From Prauserella alba (GTDB taxonomy: Bacteria > Actinomycetota > Actinomycetes > Mycobacteriales > Pseudonocardiaceae), in contig NZ_JAMTCH010000007.1 of NCBI RefSeq assembly GCF_024171735.1, positions 62,001-126,000 of the forward strand: a stretch of 64,000 bases of DNA, read 5' to 3'. Each line of letters opens with the position of its first letter. Position 1 is the stretch's first letter. The notes beneath the pieces are model-generated. The model was given only the letters and a program-made list of their open reading frames with translations. It searched no databases and was not told the DNA's origin. Shown here one piece after another: positions 8,218 to 19,616 of the stretch. The translations under genes and the position numbers were made by a program.

Positions 8218-8937
8218 GTGGCGAGACCGCGGACCATCACCGACGAACGGTTGCTGACGGCGACGGCCGCCGTCATCGAACAGACAGGGCCGGGTTTCAC
8301 GCTGGCGCAGGTCGCCAAGGAGGCGGGCGTGGCGGTCGGCAGTGTCGCGCAACGGTTCGGCTCGAAAGCCGGGCTGCTGCGGGCGTTGACCGAGCTCGGG
8401 CGCACGCAGGCCGTCGAGCGCATGCGCGAGGCGGCCGCCGAAGCGGACTCACCGGAAGTGGCGGTGCGGGCGGCACTGGTGGCGGCGTTCGCGGGACTGG
8501 ACCGCGGCGGAGAGTCCGGGGCCGGTGGTTCCGGAGCCGTGAACCACCTGGCCCAGCTCGGCACCGACCTCGCCGACCCGGAGCTGCGCGGTCTGCTCCG
8601 CCTGCACTACGCAGCGCTGCGGGACGAACTGACCGTGCTGCTGCGTATGGCCGCGAGCGAGCAGTGGTGCGGACCGGTTCCCGCCGTCGCCGCACGCGTA
8701 CTGCTGTCGGCGATCAACGGCGCGGCACTGGACTGGTCGCTGCGGGCCGAGGATCCGGCGGGTGCGAACGACGAGACGACGACGAACGACACGACGTCCG
8801 CGGACCACGCGGCGTCGAACGACACGGTTTCTGCGAGGGAAACGGTGCCTGCGAACGGCACGGTGCCTGCGAGGGACACGCTGCGGGCCTGCCTCGCCGA
8901 GACCGTCGACGTGATCATGAAGGGATGGCTGCCATGA
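8218..8937 (+). CDS. TetR-family regulator with repetitive C-terminal segment
   Basis: A 239-aa regulator. The N-terminal HTH is visible (ITDERLLTATAAVIEQ, then VAKEAGVAVGSVAQRFGSKAGLL), followed by a helical ligand domain. Residues about 182-222 are an unusual insertion of Asn/Asp/Thr/Ala repeats (NDTTSAD, NDTVSARETVPANGTVPARDT) encoded by degenerate tandem repeats. GTG at 8218 was chosen because it directly precedes the HTH and follows an AT-rich dyad. The stop overlaps the start of the SDR gene (ATGA), so the pair is probably co-expressed and autoregulated. The ligand is unknown. Confidence 0.85.
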   Translation: MARPRTITDERLLTATAAVIEQTGPGFTLAQVAKEAGVAVGSVAQRFGSKAGLLRALTELGRTQAVERMREAAAEADSPEVAVRAALVAAFAGLDRGGESGAGGSGAVNHLAQLGTDLADPELRGLLRLHYAALRDELTVLLRMAASEQWCGPVPAVAARVLLSAINGAALDWSLRAEDPAGANDETTTNDTTSADHAASNDTVSARETVPANGTVPARDTLRACLAETVDVIMKGWLP

Positions 8938-9860
8938 CCGGAACCGGCCCACTCGAGGGCAAGGTCGCCGTGGTGACGGGCGCGACGCGGGGCTGCGGCA
9001 GGGCGATCGCCGTGGAACTGGGGCGAGCTGGCGCGACCGTGTTCGCCGCGGGCAGGACGACGCGCGAGCACGCGTCGCCGATGGGCAGGCCGGAGACCAT
9101 CGAGGGGACCGCGGAACTCGTCGAGCAGGCAGGTGGCCGCGGGATCCCGGTTCGGTGCGACTTCGCCGACGTGACCGATGTGGACGGTCTCGTCGCGAGG
9201 GTCGAGGCCGAGGCGGACGGCCGGATCGACGTGCTCGTCGACGACGTGTGGGGCGGCGATCCGTACGCCGACTTCGACAACGCGTACTGGGAGTCGTCGC
9301 TGGACAATGCGCTGACCCTGGTGCGCGGCGGGCTGGAGACCCACCTGATCGCGCTCCACCGGTTGCTGCCGCTGGTGGTGCGCAATCCCGGCGGGCTCGT
9401 CGTCGAGGTCACCGACGCCGACGACGACGAGTACCTCGGCGCCGGCATCCCGTACTACCTCGTCAAATGCGGAGTGCGGGCCATCGGGCGTGCGCTGGGA
9501 GCCGAACTCGGCGCACGCGGCTGCACCGGGCTGTCGGTCACACCGGGATTCCTGCGCTCGGAGGCCATGCTCGACCTGTTCGGCGTCACCGAGGAGAACT
9601 GGCGGGACGCGGTGACCGACGAGCGGCCGGAGTTCGCGGTGTCGGAGACGCCCGCGTACCTGGCGCGTGGTGTCGCGGCGCTGGCGGCCGACCCCGACGT
9701 GGCGCGGCTGGCGGGGCGCACGCTCGCGTCGTGGACGCTGTCGTCGATGTACGGCATCAGCGACGTCGACGGCAGCCGTCCCGACTTCGGCCGCTGCTTC
9801 CGCGAGGTCTTCCGTGCGGGCCTCGACCCGAAGACCGTCGACATGTCGGCCTACCGCTGA
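8934..9860 (+). CDS. Short-chain dehydrogenase/reductase-like protein, atypical active site
   Basis: A 308-aa SDR fold. The NAD(P) motif is TGATRGCGRAIA near residue 16 and the Tyr-Lys pair is YYLVK around 180. The usual NNAG is replaced by DDVWGG, and the catalytic Ser position reads EVTDADDDEY, so chemistry may be altered. The long C-terminal extension (ETPAYLARGVAALA onward) resembles the actinobacterial group annotated simply as SDR oxidoreductases. It starts with an ATG overlapping the TetR stop, and a family A hairpin follows 41 nt later. The TetR partner probably controls it. Confidence 0.85.
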   Translation: MTGTGPLEGKVAVVTGATRGCGRAIAVELGRAGATVFAAGRTTREHASPMGRPETIEGTAELVEQAGGRGIPVRCDFADVTDVDGLVARVEAEADGRIDVLVDDVWGGDPYADFDNAYWESSLDNALTLVRGGLETHLIALHRLLPLVVRNPGGLVVEVTDADDDEYLGAGIPYYLVKCGVRAIGRALGAELGARGCTGLSVTPGFLRSEAMLDLFGVTEENWRDAVTDERPEFAVSETPAYLARGVAALAADPDVARLAGRTLASWTLSSMYGISDVDGSRPDFGRCFREVFRAGLDPKTVDMSAYR

Positions 9861-9994: not shown

Positions 9995-10648
9995 TCAGTC
10001 TCCGGGGCGGGCGAGTCCGGTTTCGTAGGCGAGGACGACGGCCTGGACGCGGTCACGCAGGTCGAGTTTCGTCAGGATGCGGCCGACGTGGGTCTTGACG
10101 GTCGCCTCGGACAGGAACAGTTCCCCCGCGATCTCCGTGTTCGACTGTCCTTTCGCGACGTGGGCCAGGACTTCGCGCTCCCGGCCGGTCAGCACCTCCA
10201 GTGTGCTCGCATCGCGCGGTGCGATCCGTCCGGTGTCGACGAACCGGTCCAGCAGCCGCCGCGTCACCGCGGGCGAGACCACGGCGTCGCCGCGCGCCAC
10301 CGACCGCAGCGCCGACACCAGATCGTCGGGCGGCGTGTCCTTCAGCAGGAACCCGGACGCGCCCGCCTGCAACGCCGAGTAGACGTATTCGTCGAGATCG
10401 AACGTCGTCATGACCAGCACCCGCGAACTGCCCGCCGCCACGATCCGCTGCGCCGCCTCGACACCGTCGAGCACGGGCATGCGCACGTCCATCAGCACGA
10501 CGTCCGGGTCGAGTTGGCCGGCGAGCTGCACCGCCTCCTCGCCGTTGCCCGCCTCCCCCGCGACCTCGATGTCATCGGAGGCGTCGAGCACCATGCGGAA
10601 GCCGACCCGCATCAGTTCCTGATCGTCGACGACGAGCACTCGGATCAT
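9995..10648 (-). CDS. NarL/LuxR-family response regulator
   Basis: A 217-aa two-component response regulator. The receiver domain has the acidic pair DD (8-9), phospho-acceptor Asp54 in VLMDVRMP, switch Thr in VMTTFD and Lys104-region FLLKD. The C-terminal LuxR HTH spans about 150-205 (LTGREREVL to VKTHVGRIL). Its ATG overlaps the kinase stop (10645-10648), so the kinase is upstream in the same leftward operon. Target genes are not evident; the nearby ABC-2 exporter and dynamin genes are possibilities only. A family A element separates it from the convergent SDR. Confidence 0.95.
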   Translation of the reverse strand: MIRVLVVDDQELMRVGFRMVLDASDDIEVAGEAGNGEEAVQLAGQLDPDVVLMDVRMPVLDGVEAAQRIVAAGSSRVLVMTTFDLDEYVYSALQAGASGFLLKDTPPDDLVSALRSVARGDAVVSPAVTRRLLDRFVDTGRIAPRDASTLEVLTGREREVLAHVAKGQSNTEIAGELFLSEATVKTHVGRILTKLDLRDRVQAVVLAYETGLARPGD

Positions 10649-11943
10649 TGACCCAACCTAACGGTGAGGGCGGCGCGGACCCGCCAGCCGCCGCCGGGTG
10701 CCGGCCCTGCGGTGAGGGACCCGTCGTGGACGTTGGTGCGTTCCCGCATGCCGATGAGCCCGTTGCCGCCGGCCGCCGGTGTGGACGGTGCGCGCTCGGC
10801 CGGTCCGGCGCCTGCCCCGGATCCGGCCGTCAGTACGGGGTTGGCCCTGCCCGCGCCGTCGTCCTCCACCTCGATGTGCACCGACCCGGCGTGGCCGGTG
10901 TCGCCTCCCGCCTCGCGGTCCCAGCGCACCCGCACCTGCGCGCGCGTGCCGACGCCCGCGTGCTTGAGACTGTTGGTGAGCGCCTCCTGGACGATCCGGT
11001 ACACGCCGAGCGACACGCCTGCGGGCAGTTCGTCGACGGCCTCGTCCAGGTCGAGCCGCACCGTCAGCCCCGCCGTCTCGACCCGGTGGGCCAGTTCGAC
11101 CAGGTCGGCGGCCGTCGGCTGCGGCGTGCGCGCGCCGTCGACGCGGTTCCCCTCGTCGTCGTGGTCGGTGTCATGCTCGTCGTCGCGCAGGATCGCCAGC
11201 AGTCTGCGCAGTTCGTGCAGCGCGCTGCGGCCCGTGTCGGAGATGGTGCCGATCGCGCGTTCGGCCAGGTCGGGGTCCTTGCGGACGGCGAACGACGCGC
11301 CGTCGGCGTGCACCACGATCACGCTGACCGCGTGCGCCACGACGTCGTGCAGTTCGCGGGCGATGCGTTCGCGCTCCTCGGCGACGGCGATGCGCGTGGC
11401 CTGGTGACGTTCGTTCTCCAGCAGGTGCAGCCGCGCTTCGACCTCGGCCTGGTAGGCCCGCCGGGCGCCGACGAACTCACCCAGCACCCAGCACAGCGCC
11501 AGTGCCAGCACGACGGTCACCGTGTTGACGACCCAGTCGTCGGGGTACTGGAGGACCTGGTGGGCCAGGCTCACGACCAGTGTCAACGCGGTGTAGACGG
11601 CGGCCTGCCTGCGTCCGCTGTAGACGACCACCGTGTACAGCGCGATGCAGCTGACCACCGCCACGCTGAACGCCACGTCGCCGAATCCCGCCGCGACGTA
11701 GGGAACCGTCCAGACCAGCACCCAGTACGCCATGACCAGCGGATACTTGCGCCGCAGCGGGACGACGCCCAGCAGCACCACGATCAGCGGCAGGCCCACG
11801 TACCACGGCGGGGTCTCGACGTCGGGCACCGGAAACGCGACGAACAGGGCGTAGACCAGCACGTCGAATGCGAACAGCACGACGGCGACGATGCTGTCGC
11901 CCACTGCGGGATGGGCCCTCATCCAGAGACTGATCCGGCGCAC
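10645..11943 (-). CDS. NarL-type sensor histidine kinase
   Basis: A 432-aa kinase. Residues 17-155 hold about five TM segments with almost no external domain, implying membrane-level sensing. A dimerisation segment follows with phospho-His199 in RERIARELHDVVAHAV (HisKA_3), then an HATPase domain with EALTNSLKHA, DDGAG and GLIGMRER. A low-complexity Gly/Ala stretch interrupts the ATP lid. GTG at 11943 is used; an internal ATG eight codons on is possible. It overlaps the response regulator by 4 nt. Divergent from the dynamin gene, with 248 nt between that show no clear operator. Confidence 0.93.
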   Translation of the reverse strand: MRRISLWMRAHPAVGDSIVAVVLFAFDVLVYALFVAFPVPDVETPPWYVGLPLIVVLLGVVPLRRKYPLVMAYWVLVWTVPYVAAGFGDVAFSVAVVSCIALYTVVVYSGRRQAAVYTALTLVVSLAHQVLQYPDDWVVNTVTVVLALALCWVLGEFVGARRAYQAEVEARLHLLENERHQATRIAVAEERERIARELHDVVAHAVSVIVVHADGASFAVRKDPDLAERAIGTISDTGRSALHELRRLLAILRDDEHDTDHDDEGNRVDGARTPQPTAADLVELAHRVETAGLTVRLDLDEAVDELPAGVSLGVYRIVQEALTNSLKHAGVGTRAQVRVRWDREAGGDTGHAGSVHIEVEDDGAGRANPVLTAGSGAGAGPAERAPSTPAAGGNGLIGMRERTNVHDGSLTAGPAPGGGWRVRAALTVRLGQ

Positions 11944-12191: not shown

Positions 12192-14060
12192 ATGACGGCG
12201 GCAGGTGAGGGCAGACCGGCCGGCCCGCTTTCGGAATCGGTGGCGGAGCTGTGCAACCGGCTGCGCGGTCAGGTCTCCCCTCGCACGGCCGCGGGTTTCA
12301 CCGAGGTGCTGCGCAGGTTGGAGGCGCCGCTGCAGGTCGCGGTCGCCGGGCGGATCAAGTCGGGCAAGTCGACCCTGGTCAACGCGCTGATCGGACGTCG
12401 CGTGGCGCCCACGGCCGTCGGCGAGTGCACGAGGCTGGTGACGCGGTTCCAGTACGGCACGGTGGACCGCATCGAGGTCGTGTTCACCGACGGCACGAAG
12501 CAGGTGCAACCGTTTGCGCCCGACGGCGGGATCCCGGCGGAGCTGGGCGTCGACATCGAGCGGGTGTCGCATCTCGAGGCGTACCTGACGAACGCGGTGC
12601 TGCGCGACATGACGGTGATCGACACTCCGGGGCTCGGGTCGCTCGACACGTCGTCGGTGGCGCGTACGCAGCGGGCACTCGGTGCGACCCGACTGAGTGG
12701 CTCGCTCACCGACGACGACCAGGAGGGTGAGCAGGCCGAACCGCCGGAGGACCCCGAGGCGGCCGACACCCTCGACGAGACGTCCCGCAGCGCGCTGGTC
12801 GGCGCCGAGGCGGTGCTGTACGTCGTCACGCAGGGCATCAGGGCCGACGACCAGCAGGCACTCGCCGCGTTCACCGCCGCGACGGCCAGCCGCGAGGCGG
12901 GTCCGGTCAACGCCATCGCCGTGCTGAACAAGGCCGACACGGTGCCGCCCGAATCGGTCGAGGGCGCAGACGGCGACGTGTGGCTCGCCGCGACGAAGCT
13001 GGCCGAGAAACAGGCAGGTCTCCTGCGGCCGCGGGTGGCCGACGTGCTGCCGGTCATCGGCCTGCTCGCGGAGTCGACGGAAACGGGGGCGTTCACCGAT
13101 ACCGAGGCCGATGCACTGCGTACCCTCGCCGGTCTCGACGACGGCGACCTGGAGGTCATGCTCGTCTCGGCCGACATGTTCACCACGTGGGACTGCGACG
13201 TTCCCGCGGGGGTGCGGGTGCGGTTGCTGGAGAAGCTGGACCTGTTCGGCATCCGCAGGGCGGTCGAGGTCATCCGCGAGGACGAGCGGATCACGGTGGG
13301 TGCGCTGCACCGGCGGCTGCTCGACAGCTCCGGGCTGGAGGCCGTGCAGCGACGGCTGGCGAGCGTGTTCGCCGCGCGCGCCGACGGCATCAAGGCGGCA
13401 GCCGCGCTGGCATCGATCACGGCGTTCGCCCACCACTCGGGTGACCAGGCGGAGCGGCAGCGGGTGCACGACGCCATCGAGGTCCTGCTCGCCCGCCCCG
13501 AGGCGCACCAGCTGCGACTGCTGGAGGCGTTGACACTGGTCACGTCGGGTGCGGTCGAGATGCCGCAGGACCTGACCGACGAGGTGCTGCGGGTCGGGAG
13601 CAGCGCCGAGGTCGACGCCCAGCTCGGCATGCCCGGTGCCCCCGTCGACGACCTGTCGGCGTACGCGCTGGAGCGTGCGGGCTGGTGGCGGTCGTTCGCG
13701 TCGTTCGGCGCCACGCCCGCGCAGGCGAGAGTGGCGCACGTCGTGCACCGCGCGTACTTCCTGCTGTGGCAGCGCCTGAAGACCCTGGCGAGCCAGGCGG
13801 CGGGTGCGCCGCCCGGCGCCGCACCCGCTCCCGGCGCCGCACCCGCCGGGGCACTCGACGGTGTCCGCTCCGGTGATCCGGCTTCCGACGGTGTCCGGCC
13901 CGGCAATCCGTTTCCGGCTCCCGCGGCACGGCCCGATCCGCAGGCACGGCCGGGTCCAGCGGTGCGGCCCGCAGGTCAGCCGCGCTCCGCTCCTCCGCAG
14001 GCCGTTCGCCCGCAGCCGGTGCATCCGCCGGCCGCCGGGCCGGGCGGTCCCGGTCGGTGA
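12192..14060 (+). CDS. Dynamin-like GTPase with Pro-rich tail
   Basis: A 622-aa dynamin-superfamily GTPase. G1 is GRIKSGKST (53-61), G3 is VIDTPG, and G4 is NKAD after an acidic insertion (about 180-205, rich in Glu and Asp). A helical region follows to about 545. The tail (546-622) is Pro/Ala/Gly-rich and probably disordered. No obvious TM hairpin is seen, unlike the partner at 14.5 kb. Actinobacterial dynamins come in pairs (compare mycobacterial IniA/IniC and Streptomyces DynA/DynB) acting in membrane remodelling or septation; that role here is inferred. ATG 12192 follows AGGGGG. A GrpE-like gene follows 3 nt after the stop. Confidence 0.88.
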   Translation: MTAAGEGRPAGPLSESVAELCNRLRGQVSPRTAAGFTEVLRRLEAPLQVAVAGRIKSGKSTLVNALIGRRVAPTAVGECTRLVTRFQYGTVDRIEVVFTDGTKQVQPFAPDGGIPAELGVDIERVSHLEAYLTNAVLRDMTVIDTPGLGSLDTSSVARTQRALGATRLSGSLTDDDQEGEQAEPPEDPEAADTLDETSRSALVGAEAVLYVVTQGIRADDQQALAAFTAATASREAGPVNAIAVLNKADTVPPESVEGADGDVWLAATKLAEKQAGLLRPRVADVLPVIGLLAESTETGAFTDTEADALRTLAGLDDGDLEVMLVSADMFTTWDCDVPAGVRVRLLEKLDLFGIRRAVEVIREDERITVGALHRRLLDSSGLEAVQRRLASVFAARADGIKAAAALASITAFAHHSGDQAERQRVHDAIEVLLARPEAHQLRLLEALTLVTSGAVEMPQDLTDEVLRVGSSAEVDAQLGMPGAPVDDLSAYALERAGWWRSFASFGATPAQARVAHVVHRAYFLLWQRLKTLASQAAGAPPGAAPAPGAAPAGALDGVRSGDPASDGVRPGNPFPAPAARPDPQARPGPAVRPAGQPRSAPPQAVRPQPVHPPAAGPGGPGR

Positions 14061-14063
14061 CCC

Positions 14064-14465
14064 GTGGGCGAGTCGGCGACCGAGGAGTTCCGGAACGTGG
14101 GAACCGTACCGGCGCGTAGCACGTCGGACAGCGATGTGGACCCAGTAGCACTCGCGAGCGGCATCGAGCCGGAGCAGGCGCTGGCCGACCGCCAGGCCCT
14201 CATCCAGCTCTGCCTGTACGCCATGGATCGCGCGCACAGTGACGGCGTCGCCGAGCGCATCGAGAAGGGACTCGCGGCGGTCGGCGTGCACGCGCTGCGG
14301 CCCGACGGCGCGCGGTTCGACCCGGCGCAACACGAGGCGGGCGGTGCCGTGCGCACCGAGGACGCCCGGCTGGAAGGCACGGTCGCCGAGACCGAGGTGC
14401 CCGGCTTCGTCGACCACGATCGCCTGCTGCGCGCACCGGTCGTCACCGTGTACACGCGTCGCTGA
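14064..14465 (+). CDS. GrpE-like nucleotide exchange factor-type protein
   Basis: A 133-aa protein with a predicted helix (about 38-70) and a C-terminal part shaped like the GrpE beta domain: FDPAQHEAG, then VPGFVDHDRLLRAPVVTVYT, recalling the canonical HEAV and GRVLRPA motifs. It is much shorter than housekeeping GrpE and lacks the long N-terminal coiled coil. GTG 14064 lies 3 nt after the dynamin stop, and the second dynamin begins 33 nt later, so one operon is likely. In related loci such genes accompany an Hsp70-like gene, but none lies beside it here. Exchange-factor activity is not established. Confidence 0.7.
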   Translation: MGESATEEFRNVGTVPARSTSDSDVDPVALASGIEPEQALADRQALIQLCLYAMDRAHSDGVAERIEKGLAAVGVHALRPDGARFDPAQHEAGGAVRTEDARLEGTVAETEVPGFVDHDRLLRAPVVTVYTRR

Positions 14466-14498
14466 CCTCGGCTGCGGCTCCCCGATAGGCTGCGCGCT

Positions 14499-16364
14499 GT
14501 GACCTCATCCACACGTTCGCTCGGCAAGGCGGGCCTGCCTGCCCAGGTCAAACAGGCCAGGGAAGCGCTGCTCACGCTGCTGCGCGGGGAGGCGCCGGAG
14601 TCAGCCGACTGGGTGGAGCGGCAGCGTTCCTCGGCGGCGGCCAAGCCGACGGCCGTCGTGGTCGGCGAGACGAACCGCGGTAAGAGTTCGCTGGTCAACG
14701 CCGTGTTGGCGGCGCCGGGGCTCTCGCCGGTCGATGCCGAGGTGGCGACGTCGACGTACCTGGTCTTCGAGCACGCCGACGAGTGGGGGGCGAAGGCGTG
14801 CTACCCGGGGCAGCTCGCCCCGGTGGAGTTCCCGATGGCGGAACTGCCCGCGTGGTCGTCGGCGTCGCACGAGCTGCCGGCCGGCCAGTTGCCGCCGCGG
14901 TACGTGCAGGTCGACGGGCCGGTGCCGCTGCTGGAACGCGTCACCGTGGTCGACACTCCCGGCGTCGGCGGACTGGACGCGGGGCACGCCGAGCTCGCCA
15001 TGGAGGCCGCGGCCAACGCGACGGCGCTGCTGTTCGTCGTCGACGCGTCCGCGCCGTTCACGTCGAGTGAGCTGCGGTTCCTCGCCGAGATGAGCGACCG
15101 CGTCGAGACCGTGCTGTTCGCGCTGGCCAAGACCGACCAGTTCCGGGGCTGGCGGGAGATCCTCGACGCCGACCGCAGGCTGCTGGCCGAACACGCGCCC
15201 CGCTTCGCCGACGCCGTGTTCCACCCGGTGTCGGCGCGCATGTTCGAGATGGCCGCGAAGGCACCGAACGAACAGGCCGCGGCCACACTGCGCGAGAAGT
15301 CGGGGATCGCCGAGCTCCAGGGCTCGCTGCAGGAAACCCTGGTCGGCAGGGCGGCGATGCTCGCCGAGGCGAACACGATGCGCTCGCTGGTCACGGCATT
15401 GTCGGAGCGGCACGCGAACGCGGTGGCCGACCAGCGCGCCCTGACGTCCGGCGAGGACGAGGCCGCCGCGTTGCGGGCCCGCCGGGACGAGTTGACCGCA
15501 GCCCGCCGTTCGTCCACACGCGGGTGGCAGCTCAAGCTGCGCGGTGAGATCCAACGGGCACGCAGCGACCTGACGCACGAATCGGCCCGGCGCATGCGGG
15601 AGGCCCAGGCGCGGTTCCGGCAGGAGATCGACGGGGCACGGCGACAGGACCTCAAGGACCTTCCCGCGCAGGTCGACGCGGTTCTGCAGGCGTCGTCGCA
15701 GCACATCTCCGGGATGCTCGCGCACCGTCTCAACCAGGTCGCCGACGCGACGCTGGCGGAGCTGTTCTGCGAGGAGGAGCTGGCCGTCATCCGGTCACAG
15801 TTCCTCCGCGGGGTGACGCCGCCGGTGGAGCTGCGCCCACCCGACAAGCGCCCGTCGTCGGCGGAGGACAAGCTGCTGGTGTTCATGGGTCTGACCAGCG
15901 GTGCGGGCGCCGCGAAACTGGCCGCCGCACCGTTGGCGGGATTCGCGCTGTTCAACCCGATCGTGCTGCCGGCGACGGTCGTCGTCGGTCTCGGCGCGGG
16001 CTGGTGGGTCGGCCGGACACGCAGGCACTCGGCCGACAAGCAGCACTCGAAGCAGTGGCTGGTCGAATCGATCGCCGACGCCCGCTCCACGCTCGACCAG
16101 CTGGTGTCCGAACAGCTCATCGAGGCCGAGCAGCAGCTGGCGCTGGCGCTGGACGAGGCGTTGAGCAGGCGGATCGAAGTGATCGAGGCCGAGCTCAAAG
16201 AGGTCGACAAGAACATCAAGATGGACGCCCAGGAGCGCAAGCAGAAGCTCGCGGTGGCGACGAAGCGCGTCAAGGACCTGGCCGACGGCCGGGAGCGTGC
16301 CGAGACGCTGCTGGGCCGGATCCGGGCGCTGCGGGACCGGCCCCGGGCGGGCGAACAGGGATGA
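14499..16364 (+). CDS. Dynamin-like GTPase with membrane hairpin
   Basis: A 621-aa dynamin-like protein. G1 is GETNRGKSS (56-64), G3 is VVDTPGVGG, and G4 is AKTD. Long helices rich in Arg, Glu and Ala (about 270-420) are probably coiled coil. A hydrophobic double segment at about 465-510 (GLTSGAGAAKLAAAPLAGFALF, then IVLPATVVVGLGAGWWVG) should insert in the membrane like the paddle of bacterial dynamins. A second coiled coil (about 515-600) ends the protein. GTG 14499 is used. It is third in the dynamin/GrpE-like/dynamin operon. The pair with the first dynamin suggests hetero-oligomers. Confidence 0.88.
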   Translation: MTSSTRSLGKAGLPAQVKQAREALLTLLRGEAPESADWVERQRSSAAAKPTAVVVGETNRGKSSLVNAVLAAPGLSPVDAEVATSTYLVFEHADEWGAKACYPGQLAPVEFPMAELPAWSSASHELPAGQLPPRYVQVDGPVPLLERVTVVDTPGVGGLDAGHAELAMEAAANATALLFVVDASAPFTSSELRFLAEMSDRVETVLFALAKTDQFRGWREILDADRRLLAEHAPRFADAVFHPVSARMFEMAAKAPNEQAAATLREKSGIAELQGSLQETLVGRAAMLAEANTMRSLVTALSERHANAVADQRALTSGEDEAAALRARRDELTAARRSSTRGWQLKLRGEIQRARSDLTHESARRMREAQARFRQEIDGARRQDLKDLPAQVDAVLQASSQHISGMLAHRLNQVADATLAELFCEEELAVIRSQFLRGVTPPVELRPPDKRPSSAEDKLLVFMGLTSGAGAAKLAAAPLAGFALFNPIVLPATVVVGLGAGWWVGRTRRHSADKQHSKQWLVESIADARSTLDQLVSEQLIEAEQQLALALDEALSRRIEVIEAELKEVDKNIKMDAQERKQKLAVATKRVKDLADGRERAETLLGRIRALRDRPRAGEQG

Positions 16365-16545
16365 CGTTCCCCGTTCGCGTGCCGCGGCCTGCTGGTGGAG
16401 GGAACCGAACCGGCATACCGTGAGTCCCAATGACAAGACCCGCGCAAGGCGGGAGCACCGGGGAGGCCGGTATCGGCCGTTGCAGGCTGCGGCGGAGCCG
16501 GCAGGTGCCGAACGATCATCAGCCCTGAGCTAGGGGGAGTTTGCA

Positions 16546-17241
16546 GTGTGGGTCGACGACGGAAGCGCTGACACCACGGCCACCACCGAGGACATGACGG
16601 TGACGGTCGACGGTGAGGAGTACACGGCCGAGCTGAACCAGGACGTCGACGGCGACGGCGTGTACGACGCCGCCCTGATCGAGCACGAGGACGGTTCGGC
16701 TCAGCTGTTCGTCGACACCGACGGTGACGGCGAGGCCGACCAGTACGCAGCGGCCGACTCGGACCGCAACGTGATCGTCGAGGCCGAGTACGACGAGTCC
16801 AGCGGGCAGTGGGTCGATATGGGCGGTGGGCCAACCGAAGCTCCGCCGGAGACCGACGCGGGCGCCGGCGGCATGATCACCGCGGACCTCGGCGACGGTG
16901 ACGTCGAGGTGGGCCCGGCGACGATCGACACCGACGAGGACGGCACGAACGACACCGCCATCGTCGAGACCGAGGACGGCGAGACGATCGCCTTCACCGA
17001 CGAGGACGGCGACGGCGAGGCCGACATCGCCGTGGTCATCGACGAGCACGGAAACGAGGTCGTGCTCGAGAGCGACGGGGACGGCGAGTGGACCGAGACC
17101 TCCGACTCCGCGGGTTCACCGAGCGCCGCGCGCGTGCCGGAGACCGCCGACGTCTGGGGCGAGAGCGCCTCGGTCGGCGCGGGCGTCGAAGGCGTGGCGA
17201 AGATCGACTCGGCCACCGGCCAGTGGATCAGCCAGAACTGA
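16546..17241 (+). CDS. Acidic repeat protein with DxDxDG motifs (DUF6802-like)
   Basis: A 231-aa, very acidic protein with repeated DxDGDG-type calcium-binding-like loops: DVDGDGVYD, DTDGDGEAD, DTDEDGTND, DEDGDGEAD, ESDGDGEW. The alternating pattern of short strands and acidic loops repeats about every 30-40 residues. It has no signal peptide or TM, so it is probably cytoplasmic. I believe it belongs to the actinobacterial DUF6802 group, but that is from memory. GTG 16546 follows AGGGGGAG. It lies 181 nt downstream of the dynamin operon in the same direction, and the pairing may be functional. The function is unknown. Confidence 0.75.
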   Translation: MWVDDGSADTTATTEDMTVTVDGEEYTAELNQDVDGDGVYDAALIEHEDGSAQLFVDTDGDGEADQYAAADSDRNVIVEAEYDESSGQWVDMGGGPTEAPPETDAGAGGMITADLGDGDVEVGPATIDTDEDGTNDTAIVETEDGETIAFTDEDGDGEADIAVVIDEHGNEVVLESDGDGEWTETSDSAGSPSAARVPETADVWGESASVGAGVEGVAKIDSATGQWISQN

Positions 17242-17786
17242 ACCGGCGAGCTCACGCGCGAGGCCCGAGAGCGTCGCGGCTGCCCGCCGTCCGCGGGTAG
17301 CGCGGCGGTGCGGTGCGGTGAGGTTCCAGCGCGGTCGGCGGAACCGCTGGGCAGCGCCGTCGGCATCGCCCGGTCGGTGTCGCTCGATCGGCGGCGCGAC
17401 CATGGTGCTCTTCCGATCGGGCGATCCTGACGCTCCTGCGCGGCGCGCGCGGCCTGCTCCCTGCGGCCCGATGTCCCACCGGGGCGTCGGGCCGCAGTCG
17501 TTCGCCGGCCTTTACGCCCGAGTTCACCGCTTTTACCTGGCGAAAGTCATTCTTCAATTAGGCCGATCGACTGCAACTGAATCGATTCCCTGATCGTTCT
17601 TGTGAGAGAACCGACAGGACTGACCTGCCTGTGGTTGCGATACGGCCGTTAGTCTCTGGGAATCCCCAAGAAACGCACGCACCGCTTGGCCGCGGTGTGT
17701 GAAGCCATTTCGGTCGCCGGCAACGGAGCCCGCACCAGGACGCTGCAGTTCGGTGTGGGCTCTTGTCGTCGAAGACAGGAGAAGAG
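17242..17786 (+). promoter_or_regulatory. 545-nt intergenic region, pckG promoter and leader
   Basis: No supported gene. About 17520-17600 is AT-richer than its surroundings and contains the self-complementary AATCGATT plus outer CGATC/GATCG arms, a plausible control region for pckG. AGGAG at 17777-17781 is the ribosome site. The exact promoter could not be assigned. Confidence 0.4.
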
Positions 17787-19616
17787 ATGACTGCAGTAGC
17801 CATCCCAGGGCTGGACGACGCACCGACCACGCACAGTGGCGTGCTGTCTTGGGTGCGGGAGGTTGCGGAACTGACCACGCCTGACCGGGTGGTGTGGGTC
17901 GACGGTTCCGAGGAAGAGGCCGAGCGCATCAACCAGGAACTGGTCGAGGCTGGCACGTTCGTCAAGCTCGACAAGCGGCCGAACTCCTACTGGGCCGCTT
18001 CCGACCCGAGTGACGTCGCCCGGGTCGAGGAGCGCACCTTCATCTGCTCCGAGCGCGAAGAGGACGCCGGGCCCACCAACAACTGGATGGCCCCCGGCGA
18101 GATGAAGGCCACCATGACCGAGCTCTACCGGGGCTGCATGCGTGGCCGGACGATGTACGTCATCCCCTTCTGCATGGGCCCGCTCGGTGACGACGACCCG
18201 AAGCTCGGCATCGAGGTCACCGACTTCGCCTACGTGGTGTCTTCCATGGGCGTCATGACGCGCATGGGCAAGAAGGCGCTGGACAAGTTCGTCAAGGAGG
18301 ACGGCACCGAGCGTGAGTTCGTGCCGGCGCTGCACTCGGTCGGTCACCCGCTCGAGCCCGGTGAGCAGGACGTGCCGTGGCCGTGCAACGACACGAAGTA
18401 CATCACGCACTTCCCGGAGTCGCGCACGATCTGGAGCTACGGCTCGGGCTACGGCGGCAACTCGCTGCTCGGCAAGAAGTGCTACTCGCTGCGCATCGCC
18501 TCGGCGATGGCGCGCGACGAGGGCTGGCTCGCCGAGCACATGCTGATCCTCAAGCTGATCTCGCCGGAGAACAAGGCGTACTACGTCGCCGCCGCGTTCC
18601 CGAGCGCGTGCGGCAAGACGAACCTCGCGATGCTGCAGCCCACCCTGCCCGGCTGGCGCGCCGAGACCATCGGTGACGACATCGCGTGGATGCGGTTCGG
18701 TGAGGACGGCCGCCTGTACGCGATCAACCCCGAGTTCGGCCTCTTCGGTGTGGCGCCCGGCACCGGCGAGAAGACCAACCCGGTGGCGGTCAAGACCATC
18801 GACAAGGGCAATACGGTCTACACCAACGTCGCGCTCACCGATGACGGCGACGTCTGGTGGGAGGGCCTGACCAAGGAGGCACCGGCTCACCTGACCGACT
18901 GGAAGGGCCGTGACTGGACGCCGGACTCCGACGAGCCCGCCGCCCACCCGAACTCGCGGTTCTGCGCCCCCATCTCGCAGATCCCGACGCTGGCGCCGGA
19001 GTGGGACGACCCGCAGGGCGTGCCGATCTCGGCGATCCTGTTCGGTGGCCGCCGGAAGACGACGGTGCCGCTGGTCAACGAGTCCCGCGACTGGCAGCAG
19101 GGCGTGTTCATGGGCGCCACCATGTCGTCGGAGAAGACCGCGGCCGCCGCGGGCAAGGTCGGCGAGGTGCGCCGCGACCCGATGGCGATGCTGCCGTTCC
19201 TCGGGTACCACGCGGGTGACTACTTCCAGCACTGGCTGGACACCGGCAAGAACGCCGACCAGTCGAAGCTGCCGAAGATCTTCTACGTCAACTGGTTCCG
19301 CCGCGGTGACGACGGCCGGTTCCTGTGGCCCGGGTTCGGCGAGAACACGCGCGTTCTCAAGTGGATCGTCGAGCGGCTCGAAGGCAAGGCGAACGCCCAG
19401 GAGACGCCGGTGGGCCTCGTGCCGACCGCCGACGACGTCGAGACGTCCGGCCTGTCGGAGCCGATCGAGGACATCCAGGCGTCGCTGGACGTCAACGTCG
19501 ACGAGTGGAAGCAGGAGATCCCGCTCATCGAGGAGTGGTTCGCCTCGATCGGCGAGGACAAGATCCCGTCCGCGCTGAAGGACGAGCTCGCCGCCTTGAA
19601 GCAGCGCCTCGGCTGA
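17787..19616 (+). CDS. pckG: Phosphoenolpyruvate carboxykinase (GTP)
   Basis: Converts oxaloacetate and GTP to phosphoenolpyruvate, CO2 and GDP, the entry to gluconeogenesis. The 609-aa protein has the GTP-PEPCK hallmarks: catalytic Cys275 within [12 protein letters not shown] (the P-loop), the [15 protein letters not shown] segment, and FYVNWFRR near the C-terminus. Length is normal for the family. ATG 17787 has AGGAG six bases upstream; an in-frame TTG eight codons earlier lacks this. It stands alone, preceded by a long leader region and followed by a family A terminator. Confidence 0.98.

Follow-up and report, generated by a model that had tools for sequence, protein, structure and literature searches.

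A reduced GrpE-like protein encoded between two IniC/IniA-type dynamin genes in Pseudonocardiaceae

Introduction

The mycobacterial proteins IniA and IniC of iniBAC are paired, adjacently encoded dynamin GTPases. According to the part of the IniA study consulted, IniC could not be examined, and IniA may need its help (PMC6715688). In cyanobacteria, a dynamin gene beside BDLP1 (UniProt B2IZD2) has a DnaJ-like domain for which the excerpt available suggests binding to DnaK or a role in assembly (PMC6104087). In GrpE, the long helices touch subdomains IA/IIA of the DnaK NBD as well as the substrate-binding domain (SBD), and the beta-sheet domain touches IB/IIB, as a section of a further report describes (PMC10803776). 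For bacterial dynamins in general, recruitment and activation are poorly understood.

The locus described here lies in the window, the whole 64,000-nucleotide stretch of Prauserella alba DNA that was analysed. As in iniBAC, two dynamin genes are paired, and the groups D1 and D2 in our trees also hold the mycobacterial-family pair; the window locus differs in having the IniC-like gene first, a GrpE-like gene (grpL) in between, and a second dynamin on another branch than IniA. As in cyanobacteria, going by description, an Hsp70 co-chaperone-type part is tied to a dynamin pair, but in B2IZD2 that part is DnaJ-like and fused to the dynamin, whereas the GrpE-like GrpL is encoded on its own. Outside the window lineage, actinobacterial Hsp70-like NBD ATPases are encoded next to dynamin pairs; this genome has one too, but not at the window locus. 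With the search terms used, no publications combining dynamin and GrpE were found, and in the papers checked that name both IniA and Hsp70, mentions of the latter were confined to cited references or concerned thylakoids, and none was linked to dynamin genes.

Results

A dynamin pair flanks a GrpE-like gene

Four co-directional genes on the plus strand make up the locus: dyn1, an IniC-like dynamin GTPase (12192..14060; Pfam Dynamin_N, 3.9e-12); grpL, encoding a reduced GrpE-like protein of 133 aa (14064..14465; Pfam GrpE, 1.8e-8, matching profile positions 97-163 of 165 only); dyn2, an IniA-like dynamin GTPase with a hydrophobic hairpin (14499..16364; Dynamin_N, 9.2e-17); and a gene for an acidic DxDGDG-repeat protein (DUF6802) of 231 aa (16546..17241; 2.3e-9). 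They are separated by 3, 33 and 181 bp. The start of dyn1 was set at ATG 12192, although its reading frame is already open from GTG 12126. The earlier note had listed two dynamins, a truncated GrpE-like protein and an acidic protein, and the Pfam domains on all four products bear this out. Downstream lies a gene for phosphoenolpyruvate carboxykinase (GTP) (PEPCK; 17763..19616, plus strand; NCBIfam NF003253, 1.4e-301), an ordinary enzyme that serves as a landmark. Divergent from dyn1, on the minus strand, are genes for a histidine kinase (10645-11943; HisKA_3, 3.8e-17) and a response regulator (9995-10648) with a C-terminal HTH by our reading; a homologue of the kinase precedes the dynamin unit in 31 of 39 sampled family loci. 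A plasmid search gave no match, and neither iniB nor iniR was noticed in the general annotation of the window locus.

By sequence, both dynamins belong to the bacterial dynamin-like proteins: each combines the GTPase domain Dynamin_N with a P-loop, a DTPG and an (N/T)KxD motif (GRIKSGKST, DTPG and NKAD in dyn1). Only one had been noted to carry an obvious membrane hairpin, and the Kyte-Doolittle profiles agree: the sole segment at or above 1.6 in dyn2 spans residues 474-501 (peak 1.87), and dyn1 has none. The AlphaFold2 model of dyn1 is poor (pLDDT 55.6), and its proline-rich C-terminal tail of ~80 aa is found in the window and in locus L040, both of one genus, and is absent from the other 26 alignment rows. 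The conservation of dyn1 was assessed from fetched loci and a class-level search. The D1 group of the tree unites the close dyn1 homologue of L040 with mycobacterial-family D1 proteins. Across residues 32-585 of 621, dyn2 matches the IniA structure 6j72 with an E value of 3.5e-18; the D2 protein of locus L124 scores 1014 bits against the same M. smegmatis protein, and we therefore took its family, f2, as mycobacterial. The D2 tree has a 99/98 branch of 13 members that unites the window type with L089, L091, L092, L103 and L132, and the mycobacterial-family proteins, L124 among them, form a separate 100/100 group of 10. We class dyn2 as a relative and not as the IniA orthologue.

GrpL keeps the beta-wing of GrpE

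In the AlphaFold2 model of GrpL, ten-residue blocks from residue 41 onward average a pLDDT of 92-97; residues 1-30 stand at ~50, and the first predicted helix covers residues 36-56. Foldseek ranks 1-12 are all GrpE, and alignment to 1dkg_B by VIA-align gives a Z score of 11.8. A resemblance to PASTA domains, with Z scores of 4.3 or less, was read as a common arrangement and set aside. GrpL thus has the beta-wing and two short helices of GrpE (PF01025), together with its FDPxxHEA motif, including the FDP proline, and its LR motif. It differs from GrpE in having no long N-terminal dimerising (coiled-coil) helix, in not being encoded beside dnaK and in the disappearance of two DnaK-contact features: the loop between the short helices is shortened, with deletion of the part that carries the DnaK-contacting Asp110 and Ser118 of M. 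tuberculosis GrpE, and the conserved arginine at the position of Arg169, the partner of DnaK Glu236, is missing. These region I positions follow the numbering of M. tuberculosis GrpE, and their placement is provisional.

There are 29 invariant columns among 39 family sequences. A start resembling W-F-R/K is present in 24 of 39 family GrpL frames and in 0 of 39 in either other frame, by a motif defined post hoc, and the VAxT motif and RxPxVxV end are common to sampled GrpL proteins with and without a local Hsp70-like gene. The GrpE tree places the family's GrpL beside sampled GrpL of other families, weakly, the split from canonical GrpE having values of 67/85. We rejected a decayed copy of the housekeeping GrpE as the origin of GrpL on the strength of the invariant columns, of the motifs common to other families and, weakly, of its place in this tree.

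GrpL is conserved with the dynamins in the family

The order dyn1-grpL-dyn2 is kept in all 39 sampled family loci (L040-L078) and in 79 of 80 named loci (L148-L227), which are the best 80 of 239 by the family profile; the two sets overlap in several genomes, for example P. salsuginis. In total grpL stands between two dynamin genes in 118 of 119 loci, the last ending at a contig edge. Of the 129 family genomes with a dyn2 orthologue, 122 have a strong GrpL; of the 21 that lack one, none does (Fisher 5e-20, ignoring kinship). Co-conservation, which had been set as a check on the locus, is thus strong and far above chance. The association is not absolute, and in at least four genomes (G006, G035, G046 and G103; L138-L141) the dynamin pair is kept and GrpL is absent. 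In one genus, the five loci with PEPCK and dynamins (L133-L137) lack both GrpL and the acidic gene.

The acidic protein is only loosely attached to this set. Its DUF6802 match scores 37.6 bits against a curated cut-off of 27, and its description as calcium-loop-like is a reading of its motifs. Within the family its gene tracks PEPCK: both are present in 35 and both absent from 4 of the 39 loci, with 77 and 3 in the set of 80. L060 and L078 show both genes inverted away from the dynamins. The view that it is a mere neighbour of PEPCK was rejected in part, since ORFs with three or more DxDxDG loops recur at 10 of 37 dynamin loci that have no PEPCK (and are absent from the other 27), 9 of them within 3 kb of the dynamins and 1 beyond. 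The p value is 0.02, falling to 0.001 when 204 kb of dynamin-free control sequence is included. Both values are modest, the genomes are related and the loop threshold was set after viewing examples; the scan recovers only 65 of 112 family acidic genes. Membership of the acidic protein in the dynamin unit, as the earlier note had it, is possible.

Hsp70-like genes accompany dynamins elsewhere

The GrpE-like gene had been noted to lack an adjoining Hsp70, and this is confirmed at the window locus, DnaK being encoded ~91 kb away. At E 1e-8 this genome has two HSP70 matches, DnaK (C5:167688) and an Hsp70-like protein (C3:780820) whose gene adjoins an FtsK/EccC-like gene; a third, weak match lies inside a carbohydrate-kinase-like gene. 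Genome G116 likewise has only two. A hidden Hsp70 gene at the locus was rejected, a six-frame profile search (E 1e-10) being empty at the 39 and the 80 family loci.

Among 20 loci fetched for distant GrpE-like hits, nine (L089-L095, L099 and L103) combine a dynamin pair with genes for a GrpE-like and an Hsp70-like protein. L088 is of the window type without Hsp70; L096, L097, L101, L102 and L105-L107 have GrpE-type and/or Hsp70 genes without dynamins; and no dynamin was seen in L104 or on the short contigs of L098 and L100, whose GrpE is L099-like. In L089-L095 and L103 the GrpE domain comes after hydrophobic segments, so that GrpL is by prediction membrane-anchored in eight of the nine full-set loci. 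In L099 there are no such segments; its GrpE-like gene is of another kind, with coiled-coil-like repeats by eye, and sits between another dynamin pair. All eight Hsp70-like proteins of dynamin loci that were scanned have a best stretch stopping at profile position 368-373 of 599 and no substrate-binding-domain match, and two have WD40 repeats.

An Hsp70-type gene is also near 17 of 23 dyn1-selected dynamin loci outside the family, against 0.43 expected, where related genomes are treated as independent and the expectation comes from per-genome match counts that split some genes. These 23 loci come from 23 genomes in 11 other families. A dyn1 hit was obtained in 43 genomes outside the family; 13 from f2 were not included, and seven were excluded as having been fetched by GrpL, although all seven loci hold Hsp70. 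L088 and L089, the window-type or GrpL loci of G234 and G291, were excluded, and the second dynamin loci of both genomes were counted. The Hsp70-type gene of L131 is a canonical DnaK; three of the six loci without one (L116, L117 and L129) have one ~10 to 14 kb from the dynamins. None of the 23 loci contains GrpL, and Hsp70-dynamin loci are mostly without it.

Discussion

We tentatively favour, at close to even confidence, an explanation in which two dynamins of the IniC/IniA type form a unit with GrpL, a partner derived from GrpE and dedicated to them, that acts through an Hsp70 NBD switch. Three points in it are visible in sequence and predicted structure: the linkage of the genes, the GrpE-type fold of GrpL and, at loci elsewhere, an Hsp70-like NBD ATPase that lacks the SBD. 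The beta-wing of GrpL would open the Hsp70 NBD and so set the ATP cycle of the switch, which in turn would load, position or release the dynamins at the membrane. The loss from GrpL of the long, SBD-contacting helix fits an Hsp70-like partner without a substrate-binding domain. The D2 tree puts the window type on one branch with loci of that kind, and the older arrangement may have been an Hsp70-like/GrpL/dynamin module from which the Hsp70 gene left the locus in the window lineage; GrpL would now act in trans, most likely on DnaK, or else on the FtsK/EccC-linked protein, the one further product of this genome that matches HSP70 at E 1e-8. The cyanobacterial DnaJ-like dynamin, as precedent, slightly raised the weight that we give this explanation. 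The earlier note had proposed a chaperone-linked membrane-remodelling complex, and that proposal holds in part: the family-wide co-occurrence and the nine loci with Hsp70-like genes support it, and the absence of GrpL beside retained dynamins and the missing DnaK-contact parts weaken it.

Rather doubtful, but to be taken seriously, is a GrpL that is no longer a nucleotide exchange factor and whose beta-wing is a direct adaptor, bridging dyn1 to dyn2 or to the membrane independently of Hsp70. Such a role would suit a protein so strongly constrained in its 29 invariant columns although this genome and G116 have two HSP70 matches each, that in this family is constantly found next to the dynamins, and whose VAxT and RxPxVxV motifs persist with or without a local Hsp70-like gene while the known DnaK-contact positions are gone; an assembly role is also one of those proposed, in the excerpt cited, for the cyanobacterial DnaJ-like domain (PMC6104087). 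It fits poorly with the nine distant loci where GrpL and the dynamins are still accompanied by an Hsp70-like gene, and with retention of the very part of the fold that opens Hsp70 NBDs.

That the genes are merely transcribed together for convenience, in a stress-linked unit, and that GrpL and the dynamins never meet, seems improbable to us. GrpL is dispensable in several genera, and the acidic gene in the same string follows PEPCK instead, but among 150 family genomes no strong GrpL occurs without dyn2, its gene keeps its place between the dynamin genes at almost every family locus, and the other kind of GrpE-like gene in L099 also lies between a dynamin pair. The least probable reading sees here an envelope-stress operon like iniBAC, with GrpL adapting the general chaperone supply and nothing going beyond known IniA/IniC biology. 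The IniA likeness of dyn2 over most of its length, the shared D1 and D2 groups and the dnaK-like gene that a passage of PMC5760070 describes for the ini locus of M. smegmatis speak for it; the D2 tree, however, puts the window type and the mycobacterial-family IniA-like proteins on different branches, and that passage on the dnaK-like gene makes no mention of GrpE.

Extended beyond the window lineage, the switch that we favour becomes a more doubtful proposal, though a plausible one. Here an SBD-less Hsp70-like ATPase and a matching, often membrane-anchored GrpL without the long helix would control an IniA/IniC-type pair in actinobacteria, sometimes with an acidic Ca-loop protein, and in Pseudonocardiaceae the system would be stripped to GrpL, whose target would now be DnaK, in trans, or the dynamins themselves. 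A loose eukaryotic parallel is the tie between Hsc70 and clathrin coats. GrpL and the Hsp70-like ATPase are concrete candidates for the control of bacterial dynamins; if the proposal is true, the beta-wing of GrpE would have a task outside protein folding, and membrane remodelling in bacteria would be linked to Hsp70-type machinery.

Layout of the Locus and Predicted Structure of GrpL

The locus carries on the plus strand an IniC-like dynamin gene, dyn1 (12192-14060; Pfam Dynamin_N, 3.9e-12), the small GrpE-like gene grpL (14064-14465; Pfam GrpE, 1.8e-8, covering just positions 97-163 of the 165 in the profile), an IniA-like dynamin gene, dyn2 (14499-16364; Dynamin_N, 9.2e-17), and a gene for an acidic protein (16546-17241; Pfam DUF6802, 2.3e-9). 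A phosphoenolpyruvate carboxykinase (PEPCK) gene follows the acidic gene from 17763; upstream of dyn1 are genes for a histidine kinase and a response regulator, in divergent orientation. These assignments bear out the earlier note, which had described two dynamin GTPases, one with a hairpin, flanking a truncated GrpE-like protein with no adjoining Hsp70 and followed by an acidic protein: hydropathy gives a membrane hairpin in dyn2 only (residues 474-501), and the nearest Hsp70 found is the canonical DnaK, ~91 kb downstream of the locus with its own GrpE.

The AlphaFold2 model of GrpL, whose best named match is from Prauserella salsuginis (95%), has a pLDDT of ~50 over the first 30 residues and a mean of 92 to 97 in each ten-residue block from residue 41. 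Foldseek matches 1-12 to the model were all GrpE chains, and VIA-align gave a Z score of 11.8 over 109 residues (rmsd 6.9) for the E. coli GrpE of 1dkg and of 10.7 over 91 residues (rmsd 2.4) for human GrpEL1, against at most 4.5 for unrelated rows. According to the report on the Mycobacterium tuberculosis complex (PMC10803776), the GrpE β-sheet domain touches the DnaK nucleotide-binding domain (NBD), and the long helices, which are required for refolding, touch DnaK subdomains IA/IIA and the substrate-binding domain. In contrast to canonical GrpE, the model indicates that GrpL is a reduced GrpE with the long helix missing. Residue numbers from that report were placed on the GrpL alignment through a presumed sequence; on this placement, GrpL lacks both the short-helix connecting loop that holds Asp110 and Ser118 in M. 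tuberculosis GrpE and the arginine partner of DnaK Glu236, and keeps the FDP proline.

Conservation in the Pseudonocardiaceae

Among 150 Pseudonocardiaceae genomes, 122 gave a strong match for GrpL (E ≤ 1e-30) and 129 for the dyn2 orthologue (E ≤ 1e-179); all 122 fall inside the 129 (Fisher 5e-20, uncorrected for kinship), the co-occurrence that the earlier note had proposed checking. Seven more genomes have weak GrpE-type matches only, one of which (G118) has a divergent GrpL (7.8e-14) adjoining its own dynamin pair (locus L103). The seven genomes with dyn2 and no strong GrpL are G006, G035, G046, G069, G077, G079, and G103; inspection of loci found GrpL absent in four (L138-L141), the contig ends at the G077 locus (L147), and the G069 and G079 loci were left out. 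The order and strand of dyn1-grpL-dyn2 are kept in all 39 sampled-genome regions and in 79 of the 80 named loci, the remaining one being cut by a contig end; several genomes belong to both sets. A W-F-R/K-like motif, defined after examples had been seen, follows the candidate start in 24 of the 39 GrpL frames (23 by eye) and in 0/39 for each other frame, and was not found in the GrpL frame of the window itself.

In some genera an opposite-strand gene for a small conserved membrane protein lies between the histidine kinase and dyn1 (L050 6935-7693, L055 7447-7920, L056 7410-7865, and L049 7145-7729, on the strand turned to dyn2). The canonical dnaK of this genome is at C5:167688-170161; in many family genomes dnaK shares a contig with the dynamin locus at tens of kb, up to ~180 kb, and coordinates read off in seven genomes of a family taken as mycobacterial place iniA/iniC-like genes ~3 to 17 kb away from it, a neighborhood that is probably conserved large-scale gene order. 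A further Hsp70-like protein of this genome adjoins an FtsK/EccC-like ATPase (L002 1180-3348; C3:780820) and resembles the type-VII-secretion-associated Hsp70-like family.

The earlier note had also placed the acidic protein in one set with the dynamins and GrpL, and whereas the dyn1-grpL-dyn2 core stands, in this family the acidic gene tracks PEPCK. Both genes are present in 35 and absent in 4 of the 39 sampled loci (77 and 3 of the 80 named loci), and at L060 and L078 they are inverted together, away from the dynamins, so the acidic gene does not simply belong with the dynamins. DxDxDG-loop-rich proteins occur at 10/37 dynamin loci without PEPCK, and for 9 of the 10 the distance to the dynamins is at most 3 kb (p 0.02; 0.001 once controls are included). 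The window's own genome has 26 DxDGDG codon-pattern matches versus 12 for the reversed control pattern, and by eye several non-overlapping matches cluster only at the acidic gene. The acidic protein is possibly a peripheral member of the dynamin set. At L116, L117, L120, and L129, where the fetched stretch shows neither GrpL nor an Hsp70-like gene, the dynamin pairs have thrombospondin-3-like calcium-loop repeats as neighbors, at a distance of ~0.6 to 2 kb.

Hsp70-like Genes at Other Dynamin Loci

Distant GrpL-like matches also turned up beyond the family in a class-level profile search, and 20 loci were fetched for distant GrpE-like hits. One (L088) is a complete window-type locus, and nine (L089-L095, L099, L103) combine, within a fetched stretch of ~19 kb, a dynamin pair with GrpE-like and Hsp70-like genes. 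The other ten show no dynamin and are mostly a GrpE-type gene beside Hsp70; L098, L100, and L104, two of them on short contigs, have neither Hsp70 nor dynamin in the fetched stretch. In L089-L095, L103, and L104 the GrpE domain comes after hydrophobic segments, which were found neither in L099 nor in the aligned region of 39 family GrpL proteins. A lipobox-like signal, seen by eye in L092-L095, suggests together with the hydrophobic segments that these are membrane-anchored GrpE proteins. In these four, the GrpE-like domain is C-terminal (near 9480-9800; L094, near 9458-9760) in a protein that has, besides the signal, one transmembrane segment and a linker rich in Pro, and a DxDGDG-repeat ORF adjoins the gene (near 8350-8450; L094, near 10755).

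An independent set of 23 loci, picked solely by dyn1 similarity from 23 genomes in 11 other families, has an Hsp70-type gene at 17, including a canonical DnaK at L131, where gene counts and genome sizes predict 0.43 (uncorrected for kinship); GrpL is at 0/23. A Pfam scan of eight Hsp70-like proteins of dynamin loci matched the nucleotide-binding part only, the best stretch ending at 368-373 of 599, and two are fused to WD40 repeats (L089 12353-14788; L127 12801-14864). No Hsp70 was found in the fetched stretches of the 119 family loci. A kinase-like gene (L103 10728-12380) and a sigma-factor-like gene (L132 13672-14232), both assigned by reading, lie in or beside Hsp70-like/dynamin loci, hinting at possible regulation.

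Possible Origin and Role of GrpL

A dynamin tree of 52 rows separates the dyn1-like from the dyn2-like proteins (100/100). Window-type dyn2 (8 rows) shares a 99/98 branch with dyn2 of L089, L091, L092, L103, and L132, which all carry an Hsp70-like gene and, except for L132, GrpL. Mycobacterial-family IniA-like proteins (the L124 dynamin scores 1014 bits against M. smegmatis IniA) differ in sitting in a separate group of ten, with an Hsp70-type gene at all ten loci. The simplest reading would be that the Hsp70-like/dynamin link is old, that GrpL joined later, and that in the window lineage the locus then lost its Hsp70-like gene; the dyn1 tree gives no resolution of this history, and the GrpE tree supports a GrpL group weakly (67/85). 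Published reports describe a dnaK-like gene in the M. smegmatis ini locus (PMC5760070) and a DnaJ-like domain on a cyanobacterial dynamin, for which DnaK binding or a part in assembly was proposed (PMC6104087). Nothing linking dynamin with GrpE was found in the open-access library searched, most subscription journals being outside its scope.

GrpL is most likely part of a nucleotide switch for the dynamins, in which ancestral GrpL would act on an Hsp70-like ATPase without a substrate domain by opening the NBD; such a partner matches the lost long helix of GrpL. The HSP70 matches available in the window's genome are DnaK and one other only. In the main rival, GrpL would by now have become a direct binding partner of the dynamins; this is favored by its strong conservation although no Hsp70 is local, and by its lost DnaK contacts. 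The locus is real and strongly conserved, and the earlier interpretation was right in part. The dyn1-grpL-dyn2 unit is a new form of bacterial dynamin pair, and its clear interest is that it opens the control of dynamins to experiment.
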